From: Rikenellaceae bacterium
Lineage (GTDB): Bacteria > Bacteroidota > Bacteroidia > Bacteroidales > Rikenellaceae
Direction: 5' to 3'
NCBI GenBank assembly: GCA_017415005.1
Contig: JAFQJK010000023.1
Coordinates: forward strand, 1-64,000
DNA: 64,000 bases
This document shows positions 16,221-63,486 of the stretch, in pieces; the first letter of the stretch is position 1; every line of letters begins with the position of its first letter. A model generated the notes under the pieces. The model was given only the letters and a program-made list of their open reading frames with translations. It was not told the origin of the DNA and did not search any database. The translations under genes and the position numbers were made by a program.

Positions 16221-16619
16221 ATGACTGATCCCATATCAGATTTTCTAACTCGTGTTAGAAACGCGGTGAAAGCCAACCACAAAGTGGTTGAAGCTCCCGG
16301 CTCAAAGATGAAGCAGGAGATCACAAAGATCCTGCACGAGCAAGGCTATATCCTTGCTTACAAGGTGGATACAGACGAGAAGGGTCGCTCGACGATCAAG
16401 ATCGCCCTCAAGTACCACCCCGAAACCAAGACCAATGCGATCAAGGGGCTTAAGCGCGTCAGCCGTCCCGGCCTGCGCCGTTATGCCAGCGTCGACGAGA
16501 TGCCGCGCGTACTCAACGGCCTCGGTATCGCCATCCTTTCGACCTCCAAGGGCGTGATGACCGACAAGAAGGCTCGCCAGGAGAACGTGGGCGGTGAAGT
16601 AATTTGCTATGTTTACTAA
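16221..16619 (+). CDS. rpsH: 30S ribosomal protein S8
   Basis: Central-domain 16S rRNA binder. The 132-residue product starts [20 protein letters not shown] and ends with the conserved [20 protein letters not shown]. In E. coli S8 is the spc-operon repressor; whether this holds here cannot be seen. Confidence 0.99.
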
Positions 16620-23765: not shown

Positions 23766-24365
23766 ATGAGACATAACAAATCAATCAACCACCTCGGTAG
23801 AACGAGCTCGCATCGGAAGGCGCTGATGTCGAACCTGGCCAGCTCGCTGATCATCCACAAACGGATCAACACTACCGTCGCCAAGGCGAAGGCTCTGCGC
23901 ACGTATGTCGAGCCGCTGATCACCAAATCGAAAGAGGACACGACGCACTCGCGCCGCGTGGTCTTCAGCTACCTGAAGGATAAGAACGCCGTTACGGAGC
24001 TGTTCCGCGAGGTGGCTCCGAAGATCGCCGACCGTCCGGGGGGATATACCCGTATCCTGAAGACCGGCTTCCGTCAGGGCGATGCTGCCGACATGTGCTT
24101 CATCGAGCTGGTTGACTTCAACGAGGCTTATACGCAGGCTGCCGGCTCGAAGGCCGCCGAGAAGCCGAAGACGCGCCGTAGCCGTGCAGCGAAGAAACCC
24201 GCTGCCGCGAAGCCCGCAGCCGAAGCTGTTGCTGCCGAGGCAGGAGCTGAGGTAGCCGCTGCCGAGACCGTTGTTGAAGCTGCTGCTGCCGAGGAGAAGA
24301 AGCCCGCTGCAAAGAAGCCTGCCGCCAAGAAGGCTCCGGCCAAGAAGGAAGAGGCTGCCGAATAA
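23766..24365 (+). CDS. rplQ: 50S ribosomal protein L17 with a long Ala/Lys/Glu tail
   Basis: Exit-tunnel-side 50S protein. Residues 1-125 are a normal L17 ([20 protein letters not shown] at the start). The remaining roughly 70 residues are a low-complexity extension of [11 protein letters not shown] and KKPAAKK type blocks, not found in E. coli L17 (127 residues). The tail is encoded in frame up to the stop 27 bp before the operon terminator. Its alternating charged and alanine-rich composition predicts a flexible or helical appendage. Confidence 0.98.
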
Positions 24366-60868: not shown

Positions 60869-61375
60869 CTAAAGCTCGATCTCGGCCGGCATCTCCCCGT
60901 CGGGCAGCAGCCCCCACTCATTGTCGACGAAGCTCTCGCCAGAGATATCCTTGACGGCCATCTTCATGTACTTACCCTCGGCCGTGGCGGCCACCTCGCC
61001 GTTGGGGAGGATCAGCTCGCCCGTTCCCTGGAAGAAGCGGCCGTGGTCGACGGTGATCCGGCCGATCACCTTGAGCTCCTGTTCGAGGGGCACCTGTTTT
61101 TTGTATCGGGTCGTCAGCTCGAGCGTCACGCCCCACACCATGTCGCCGTAGTGGGCACAGATGGCACGCCCGATCGTTTCGTCGAGCATTGCGGCGATCG
61201 CCCCGCCGTGCATCCGGTTGGGATAGCTCTGGTGGTGGTCTTCGGGCGTGAACACGGAGATCAGCTCGTTGTCCTCGGTTTCATAGAACCGGGCCCGGAG
61301 GCCGTGTGCGTTGTCCATGCCGCAGACGAAGCAGCGGCGCGAGTTGAATTGCTGACGTTTGATCTTATACTTCAT
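60869..61375 (-). CDS. Hotdog-fold acyl-CoA thioesterase (PaaI-like)
   Basis: A 168-residue single hotdog domain. RRCFVCGMDNAHGLRARF near residues 11-28 is the CFVCG-N-x-GL start of the PaaI-like group, and NRMHGGAIAAMLDETIGRAI near residues 51-70 carries the catalytic HGG and acidic residues. It probably hydrolyses acyl-CoA esters in the cytoplasm. The start at 61375 (MKYKIKRQQ) follows a -7 box in the upstream repeat array at 61395-61402, leaving a very short leader. Confidence 0.87.
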   Translation of the reverse strand: MKYKIKRQQFNSRRCFVCGMDNAHGLRARFYETEDNELISVFTPEDHHQSYPNRMHGGAIAAMLDETIGRAICAHYGDMVWGVTLELTTRYKKQVPLEQELKVIGRITVDHGRFFQGTGELILPNGEVAATAEGKYMKMAVKDISGESFVDNEWGLLPDGEMPAEIEL

Positions 61376-61394: not shown

Positions 61395-61402
61395 CAAATA
61401 TA
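61395..61402 (-). promoter_or_regulatory. Thioesterase -7 box inside repeat unit A
   Basis: TATATTTG on the minus strand is a perfect -7 match, 19 bp before the thioesterase start codon. Identical copies recur at 61468, 61541 and 61761 in other units. A TTG lies only 15 nt upstream, shorter than usual. Confidence 0.55.
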
Positions 61403-61772
61403 GTGAAAGCCGAGCGACAAGGCGAAAACTTGTTTTCAGACTTGTCCGAGGCGCCTCCTGTATTATTCAAATATAGTGAAAGCCGGGCGGCAAGGCGAAA
61501 ACTTGTTTTCAGGCTTGTCCGAGCGCCTCCTGTGGTTTTGCAAATATAGTGAAAGCCGGGCGGCATCGTGCAAATTGGTTTGCAAAGATGTCCGAACCGC
61601 ATCTTATATGCTACCGGTATAGCAAAAGCCGAACGACAGTCGGAGCGTCTGCGCTCAAATATTGCCGGGCCGCCTCCCGTATTCTATCGATATGGTGGAA
61701 GCCGAACGACAAAGCCGAGCTTGCCCGCAGCCCTGCCGGGATCTTTCCTGCCCGTATATACAAATATAGTGA
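61395..61772. repeat. Tandem array of 73-nt units with conserved hairpins
   Basis: Unit starts at 61395, 61468, 61541, 61614, 61687 and 61761 (period 73, last 74). The first two units are near-identical; later ones diverge. Each unit begins CAAATATAGTGAAAGCCG or a variant. Units A and B contain an outer stem GACAAG/CTTGTC (61416-61421 with 61441-61446 in A) and an inner GAAAAC/GTTTTC. Unit C has a different sequence at the same offsets but keeps both stems (61562-61567 with 61587-61592; 61569-61574 with 61579-61584). Unit D keeps the inner stem GAGCG/CGCTC. The last unit is truncated. Confidence 0.85.
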
Positions 61773-61988: not shown

Positions 61989-62357
61989 ATGAAAGGAATC
62001 TCTGCCATTTTGCTGCTCGTGGTCTCCAATATGTTCATGACGATGGCCTGGTACGGCCACCTCAAGTTCAGGGAGATGAAAGGTTTCGACGCGTTGCCGC
62101 TCATTGCGGTCATCCTCGTGAGCTGGGGCGTTGCGTTTTTCGAGTATTGTTTCCAGGTGCCGGCCAACCGGATCGGCTTCCGGGGGAACGGAGGCCCGTT
62201 CTCGCTCGTCGAGCTGAAGGTGATCCAGGAGGTGGTTTCGCTTACGGTCTTCACTCTGTTTGCGCTGCTGTTTTTCAAGACCGAGACTTTTCGCTGGAAC
62301 CACCTCGTCTCGTTCTTTTGTCTGGTGCTGGCCGTCCTTTTCGCGTTTAAGAGATAG
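61989..62357 (+). CDS. DUF486 family small membrane protein
   Basis: A 122-residue integral membrane protein with four hydrophobic segments (about residues 3-22, 37-55, 77-95 and 102-119). SWGVAFFEYCFQVPANRIG near residue 46 is the family signature. DUF486 belongs to the drug/metabolite transporter clan, but no substrate is known. It stands alone and starts with MKGISAILLLVVSNMFMT. Confidence 0.9.
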   Translation: MKGISAILLLVVSNMFMTMAWYGHLKFREMKGFDALPLIAVILVSWGVAFFEYCFQVPANRIGFRGNGGPFSLVELKVIQEVVSLTVFTLFALLFFKTETFRWNHLVSFFCLVLAVLFAFKR

Positions 62358-62480: not shown

Positions 62481-62903
62481 ATGTCGGCAAACGTTCAGGA
62501 ATATCTCATGCGTCACGGCATACGTCCATCGCTCCAGCGGATGGCGGTGATGGAGTATCTGATGACGCACCGGACCCATCCGACTGCCGATGAGATTTAC
62601 GGCGCACTGAGCCCGTCGATGCCCACGCTGTCCAGGACCACGGTCTACAATACGCTCAATCTGCTTGCCTCCCGGGGCGCTGTGCTCGCGCTCGATATAG
62701 ATGCCCGGCAGACGCGTTTTGACGGCGATACATCGCTGCATGCCCATTTTCTTTGCAAGTCGTGCGGCGCGATCCACGATATGCCCGTGGCGGACGACGC
62801 TATGCGGATGCTCCGCCCGTTCGTCCCGGTACAGGTCGATGATGTTCAGATCCTGTATAAGGGTGTTTGTTGCGAATGTTACAAATGTAAGACGAACGAT
62901 TAA
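62481..62903 (+). CDS. Fur family regulator (PerR-like)
   Basis: A 140-residue metal-dependent repressor. Residues 1-80 form the winged helix (MRHGIRPSLQRMAVMEYL, TADEIYGALS, SRTTVYNTLNLL). The dimerisation part has HAHFLCKSCGAIHDMP with its HxH and CxxC, and a closing CCECYKC, the structural zinc cysteines. The neighbour 31 bp downstream is rubrerythrin, so the regulator probably senses peroxide (PerR) rather than iron. The gene order regulator-target is a common oxidative-stress arrangement in anaerobes. Confidence 0.92.
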   Translation: MSANVQEYLMRHGIRPSLQRMAVMEYLMTHRTHPTADEIYGALSPSMPTLSRTTVYNTLNLLASRGAVLALDIDARQTRFDGDTSLHAHFLCKSCGAIHDMPVADDAMRMLRPFVPVQVDDVQILYKGVCCECYKCKTND

Positions 62904-62934
62904 CTCATATATTTACCGATTTAAACTTAATTAG

Positions 62935-63486
62935 ATGATGAAAAAGTTCAGATGTACTGTTTGCGGTTATGTGCACACCGGTGACGAGGCTCCCGAGAAA
63001 TGCCCCCAGTGCGGTGTTCCTGCGTCGAAGTTCGTAGAGATGGAAGAGAGCGAAGGCGCGCTGTCGTTTGCCGACGAGCATGTGATCGGCGTGGCCAAGG
63101 GTGTTGACGAAGAGGTGCTTGAGGGCCTGAAAGCTCACTTTATGGGTGAGTGTACCGAGGTGGGCATGTACCTGGCCATGAGCCGTCAGGCCGACCGCGA
63201 GGGCTATCCCGAGGTGGCCGAGGCATACAAGCGCTTTGCCTGGGAGGAGGCCGAGCACGCAGCCAAGTTCGCCGAGCTGCTGGGCGAGGTGGTCTGGGAT
63301 ACCAAGACCAACCTGAAGGCCCGCATGGAGGCCGAGTGCGGCGCTTGCGAGGACAAAAAGCGTATCGCTACGCGTGCCAAGCAGCTCAACCTGGACGCTA
63401 TCCACGATACGGTTCACGAAATGGCCAAGGACGAGGCGCGTCATGGCAAGGCTTTTGAAGGGCTTTATAACAGGTACTTCAAATAG
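62935..63486 (+). CDS. Rubrerythrin (reverse domain order)
   Basis: Non-haem di-iron peroxidase protecting anaerobes from hydrogen peroxide. In this 183-residue protein the rubredoxin domain is at the N-terminus ([10 protein letters not shown] at residues 7-16 and CPQCG at about 23-27). The ferritin-like di-iron domain follows, with ligands in [22 protein letters not shown] and [10 protein letters not shown]. This is the reversed order relative to classical rubrerythrin. The start codon is doubled (ATGATG). It is cotranscribed with the Fur-like gene. Confidence 0.94.

Follow-up and report, generated by a model that had tools for sequence, protein, structure and literature searches.

The window, the whole 64,000-nucleotide (nt) stretch of DNA analysed here, contains a tandem array at positions 61395-61768, between two divergently oriented genes. 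To one side, on the minus strand and downstream of the array, is a hotdog-fold thioesterase-like gene (60869..61375; TIGR00369, E = 4.8e-5, under the cut-off) with its start codon at 61375 and an orthologue of 86% identity in a genome of the same genus, G001. To the other side, on the plus strand, is an open reading frame for a 122-amino-acid membrane protein (61989..62357), which adjoins the thioesterase gene in G001 as well. Elsewhere in the window, a gene for a PerR/Fur-family regulator is followed directly by a rubrerythrin-like gene (62481-63486), forming a plausible oxidative-stress pair, and short tandem repeats of 27 and 15 nt at 24218-24348 resemble part of a repetitive Ala/Lys-rich coding stretch.

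The array comprises five units, of which four are recognisable (starts at 61395, 61468, 61541 and 61614) and the fifth is a degenerate remnant that starts at 61687. The 73-nt tandem periodicity reported in the preliminary description is recovered by TRF (period 73, 61395-61565, score 284), and covariance model R1 matches four of the units on the plus strand. Unit A (61395..61466; 89.2 bits, E = 3.8e-18), which is proximal to the thioesterase-like gene, contains the full hairpin; unit B (61468..61538; 70.2 bits) has a G.T pair within its outer stem; unit C (61541..61612; 80.8 bits) differs in the letters of its stems with the structure kept; and unit D (61614..61685; 35.0 bits, E = 9e-5) has diverged. 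The remnant, unit E (61687..61759, plus strand), begins TCGATATGGTGGAAGCCGAACGACAAAG and was recognised by eye; it has no match to model R1 and folds no better than shuffled sequences.

The perfect boxes previously noted as pointing toward the thioesterase-like gene are also present, with CAAATATA (on the minus strand, TATATTTG) at 61395, 61468, 61541 and 61761. Read on the minus strand as -7 boxes, the proximal one (61395..61402) lies 19 nt upstream of the thioesterase-like start codon, followed by those of unit B (61468..61475) and unit C (61541..61548), the latter with a TTTG 22 nt further upstream. The last box of the array (61761..61768), with CAAATATAGTGATTTTCCC at the far end, has a flank similar to that of the G001 promoter and is read from this similarity as the native -7 box, displaced.

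Each of the outer stems (GACAAG/CTTGTC, GGCAAG/CTTGTC and GGCATC/GATGTC) and inner stems (GAAAAC/GTTTTC, TGCAAA/TTTGCA and, in unit D, GAGCG/CGCTC) listed in the preliminary description occurs in the array, the outer stems at the offsets given there when counted from zero. When folded singly, the window units are just modestly better than their shuffles (z = -2.5, -1.5, -2.7, -0.6 and +0.5 for units A to E), such that the window alone provides weak evidence and the case rests on its relatives.

The array had at first been allowed to be a single degenerate copy, but it is 1 of 50 arrays in its own genome. Within this 2.66-Mb draft (92% complete), 121 units form 50 tandem groups at E <= 0.01; a covariance model built from 39 units returns 125 matches at E <= 1, and a DNA search returns 52. 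Across the family, units range from 64 to 87 nt in length, and there are four cases in which identical 53-nt bodies are shared between different arrays. The search of related genomes proposed in the preliminary description locates the unit in other genera of Bacteroidales: it is present in 15 of 41 genomes (40 relatives and the source genome) and in 16 of 148 genomes sampled from the order, with several carriers having close to, or at least, 33 matches. An exact search for the left-end pattern recovers at least 117 stretches, and the 80 left-end matches listed are from Bacteroidales, as judged by their titles. Named carriers include Paraprevotella clara, P. xylaniphila, Proteiniphilum acetatigenes, Bacteroides caecigallinarum, Xylanibacter rarus and Barnesiella spp., and Prevotella is also among the genera that have the unit. 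Beyond the order, a class-wide draw produced only two genomes, with one weak match each. The family is high-copy yet patchy in Bacteroidales. Carriage by phages was considered and rejected, there being one match in 2.9 million viral contigs; the sole contig of the viral collection with an exact unit start is an IMG/VR contig (L266, positions 2836-2855).

Arrays vary in their linkers and boxes. Some arrays of the source genome, such as C49, C121 and C43, contain two linker types in alternation, CTATCTTCTGCAAAGATAG and a second, CTGTCTAAGACnnAGTCAAAGATAG, and the units of G296, a carrier from a second genus, have a longer linker, CGGCGAAGCCAAATTAG (L245, G296:C13). The later boxes of this G296 array drift to CAAATTAG and the first remains CAAATATA, as if selection retained just the gene-proximal box.

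Sites without units in related genomes reveal where the units enter. At ffh, the empty site in G001 contains one box and reads AAACAAATTCG-TATCTTTGC-CATCTAATCG (its short form ending in CATC), and the occupied site in the source genome reads AAACAAATTCG-TATCTTTGC-two units-TATCTTTGC-CGTCAAACCG (its short form ending in CGTC). The box is doubled at ffh relative to the empty site, constituting a target-site duplication. This is the only empty site that is clean to the base, the others having diverged. The promoter at the window locus is likewise empty in G001, where the box TAACTTTG lies 21 nt from the start codon. Because G001 (85% complete) has no unit match at E <= 0.01, the copies in the source genome were either gained after the split of the two genomes or lost wholesale in G001. 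G394, a further genome of the second genus, lacks three of the arrays of G296 in its syntenic stretch and shows a single -7 box at two of these three loci.

The sequence shared before the box is usually 0 to 1 nt, indicating that the duplicated tract is about 7 to 8 bp. Longer target duplications (up to 18 nt, at L138) were rejected, since the flank is the end of the preceding unit. Of 34 arrays, 31 have the same variable box letter, K, at their two ends, and the other three have a degenerate proximal box.

The orientation of arrays relative to genes is strongly biased. In 45 of 47 arrays in the source genome (P = 1.6e-11), the neighbouring gene on the 5' side is transcribed divergently from the hairpin strand, as it is in 94 of 99 arrays in other Bacteroidales, where the distance between box and start codon has a median of 43.5 nt. 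Gene calls came from a purpose-written codon-usage script, so that start codons are approximate. As a result, almost every array, when viewed from this 5'-side gene, begins with CTATMTTTG. The orientation of the gene on the far side is unbiased (45:42). In every good unit, a Bacteroidetes -7 box (TATMTTTG) faces the gene on the 5' side, and most arrays in the source genome have one further box past the last unit, after which the sequence is unrelated; overall, a distal box of the AAANATA type follows 62 of 102 arrays, against a background of 1.8%.

Native promoters of the source genome provide a standard for these boxes. The motif TANNTTTG occurs 80 times in 208 upstream regions versus 10 times in reversed strings, and the preferred distance of a TTG upstream of the box is 20 nt (seen for 9 of 72 native boxes, with approximately 1.2 expected). 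Among units, 35% of those in the source genome and 48% of those elsewhere have CAA(A) precisely 20 nt from the box, which on the gene strand yields TTG/TTTG-N20-TATMTTTG, the spacing that is commonest in native promoters. Most of the 72-nt units of the source genome, including units A and B of the window, are without a -33 TTG, and unit C has it at 22 nt. The genes downstream are a mixture of housekeeping genes (ffh, uvrB, lgt, prfA, mutY, dxs, mreC, mgsA and others). A regulon was rejected after a scan of 40 downstream genes, which are functionally mixed. An exceptional unit (G000:C117:5368-5438; L093 4869-4939) overlaps the 3' end of a gene for a 948-amino-acid nuclease/helicase-like protein, where it sits at a pseudo-box, GCAAATCTCC, and the stop codon of the gene lies inside the unit.

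These properties bear on the multi-promoter array, one of the roles suggested in the preliminary description. In such a domesticated cis-regulatory array, each unit would serve as a promoter or would be bound by a protein, and copy number would tune downstream expression. The suggestion holds with respect to the gene-facing -7 box of every good unit and to the CAA(A) spacing, which fits the native TTG-N20 preference, and the arrays precede essential housekeeping genes, where transcription must survive. It does not hold for the many units in the source genome that are without the -33 TTG; moreover, the downstream genes share no function, the orthologous promoters of relatives are without units, and a promoter needs neither compensatory changes in its stems nor a preference for folding on one strand. 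We regard this reading as unlikely.

The plus strand of the unit has the form CAAAKATAG-[TC]GAAAG-SYN-GAG-N-stem-inner hairpin-stem-C-CGA-RSC-GCATCC-TATMTT. At the foot of the hairpin, AAAKATAG pairs with CTATMTT, after which comes a 3-bp stem (GCC/GGC, GGC/GCC or GGT/ACC). Above this stem lies a tandem G.A/A.G mismatch, which a lone G-C pair separates from a one-base bulge; the stem that follows and the inner hairpin are both variable. Among 150 units, 92.7% of cells pair, and there are 466 double-change cells versus 151.6 expected in shuffles and 31 to 47 in slid controls. The rows behind these figures were aligned to a model with most of this structure built in, which works in its favour. 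The first set of units, aligned with MAFFT without structure, agrees, with 101 double-change cells versus 33 in shuffles and 5 to 20 in slid controls. The test of stem covariation called for in the preliminary description is thus, with the whole family, far above both controls. Its proposal that selection acts on structure gains support from the covariation of these 150 units, drawn from many genera, and from the conservation of positions that do not form Watson-Crick pairs: in other Bacteroidales, about 95% of units retain the tandem G.A mismatch. The hairpin is shown by these patterns to be under strong constraint. Letter K of the box covaries with the right arm of the unit (GC, 62; UA, 52; GU, 15).

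Covariation might also arise without selection. Quasipalindrome correction, in which template switching makes paired changes together, is a known mutational process and would keep a palindrome matched, with the units spread by recombination alone. The concerted changes in the box and right arm are of the kind that it produces, but such correction should erase mismatches, and both the tandem G.A/A.G and the bulge persist. Nor would it be expected to favour one strand, and exact entry at -7 boxes needs a further process, making this explanation very improbable.

The two strands of the unit are not equivalent. With DNA parameters, the plus strand is the more stable in 66:13 units of the source genome and 134:16 other units, and with RNA parameters in 65:15 and 122:28, respectively, P values for this preference being nominal because the units are related. 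Wobbles in the stem are more often G.T (99) than A.C (45). It is the favoured strand that serves as template for the downstream gene, such that the mRNA would carry the complement, which folds more poorly; this preference favours a function as single-stranded DNA. The structured RNA raised in the preliminary description, or a leader element transcribed through the array, draws on the strong covariation, the wobble pairs and the prospect that transcripts starting at distal boxes would cross the proximal units, but is the least probable of the readings considered, given that the folding strand is the template, that the right end (TATMTT followed by C or A) offers no TANNTTTG box for transcription in the opposite direction, that single units begin at the -7 box and their own promoter would hence not transcribe the hairpin, and that Rfam yields no match in the window at the gathering threshold and none for the array up to E = 5.

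In the reading that we consider probable, the array represents the tandem insertion of a mobile palindrome of Bacteroidales, a small REP/MITE-like element that is non-autonomous and that targets and regenerates -7 boxes. Its units are dispersed, stand with few exceptions in one orientation upstream of genes, insert at the -7 box and duplicate it, and are constrained on one strand. The element probably moves as a single-stranded DNA hairpin, the foot stem of which is formed by the box (AAAKATA) paired with the element's own right arm (TATMTT), and the right arm may serve as a guide that chooses a matching -7 box. That K matches at both ends of arrays and covaries with the right arm suggests guide-like target choice, for which IS200/IS605 elements offer an analogy, although this covariation could be explained also by selection on the stem alone. 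Upon insertion, the box would be doubled and the gene would retain a -7 element; with the start signal duplicated, spread before essential genes would be possible without silencing them. Repeated insertion or unequal exchange could then build the tandem arrays. With many subtypes comes a TTTG located 20 nt upstream of the box, and these would then act as ready-made promoters; judging from sequence, promoter activity of the units is plausible. The biases in orientation and location could instead reflect the selective loss of insertions elsewhere.

A more specific form of this mobile palindrome, which we offer tentatively and consider rather doubtful, is a self-guided, single-stranded DNA element whose right arm pairs with the target box and thereby selects TATATTTG or TATCTTTG promoters. 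A host-encoded or unrecognised recombinase other than RAYT would insert it adjacent to the box and the promoter would be rebuilt, resulting in an order-wide family specialised to housekeeping promoters.

A search for what might mobilise the units found no such enzyme, and no parent transposon was seen. The Y1_Tnp domain (PF01797) is absent from the source genome, a 92% complete draft, and from 11 of the 12 unit-bearing genomes searched; a RAYT/IS200 transposase was rejected as the mobiliser because this domain is absent or rare in unit-bearing genomes. The mark of an autonomous element, a left end situated far from a right end, was present in none of the 97 left-end matches when these were set against the matches to the model. 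In another family of Bacteroidales, a RAYT-like gene (302 amino acids, PF01797; L108, G032:C20, near position 16402) lies between numerous tandem copies of a different repeat, GGACCTGTGTCATTTTGAGTCGGGAATGCGTCTAGTCCG, apparently a separate REP family.

If the proposed explanation is true, the units add to gut Bacteroidales a widespread and apparently undescribed class of short mobile elements that target the core promoter itself. Should the pairing of box and guide be real, it would supply a rule of targeting that can be tested and perhaps a means of placing short DNA at promoters, and if the units are active promoters, changes in their copy number would generate variation in expression upstream of ffh, prfA, dxs and similar genes. 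No description of the unit was found in open-access full texts, a scope that stops short of subscription papers, supplements and preprints, and the main texts on BrickBuilt, TnpA_REP subclass 2.6, the GTAG/CGTC repeats and 104 candidate RNAs contain no match to it.

Several known systems resemble the units in part. The GTAG- and CGTC-tagged repeats are also palindromic DNA repeats, the CGTC type being reported in Bacteroidetes, but neither tag is in the unit consensus (PMC3733652). The BrickBuilt MITE of Porphyromonas gingivalis is likewise an intergenic tandem repeat of Bacteroidales, and its promoter activity was shown in a reporter (PMC4596501). It differs in having 23-nt repeats between a leader and a tail, in about 19 copies within one species, and in having no fixed insertion at promoter boxes (PMC4596501), whereas the units are 64 to 87 nt in length and have neither leader nor tail. 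Like classical MITEs, the units are short, non-autonomous, situated near genes and associated with a target-site duplication. Unlike them, any likeness to terminal inverted repeats is limited to the pairing of box and right arm, in that the left arm is the target box itself and TATMTT of the right arm complements it, and compensatory changes in the stem are atypical for MITEs.

Closest in phylum are the repeats of TnpA_REP subclass 2.6, which in Bacteroidetes is flanked by "atypical secondary structures" (PMC6006769). As portrayed there, these repeats share with the units non-canonical hairpins without GT[AG]G and copies elsewhere in the genome (PMC6006769). The comparison is by description rather than by repeat sequence, and genomes rich in units are without the subclass 2.6 gene. 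With REP and REPIN sequences in general (RAYT, TnpA_REP), the units share their form as short, intergenic, palindromic hairpins, dispersed in high copy number, along with tandem clusters, a patchy distribution, a mismatch or bulge in the hairpin and a single functional strand. They differ in that the foot is CAAAKATA-G[TC]GAAAG (with GTGA or GCGA beside the box) rather than GT[AG]G or CGTC, in that they insert at promoter -7 boxes and duplicate them, and in that a Y1 transposase flanked by the repeat was not found in the source genome or in 11 of 12 unit-bearing genomes. Because two of the features that define REPs are missing, the units are classed as a variant of the REP/MITE kind and not as REPs.
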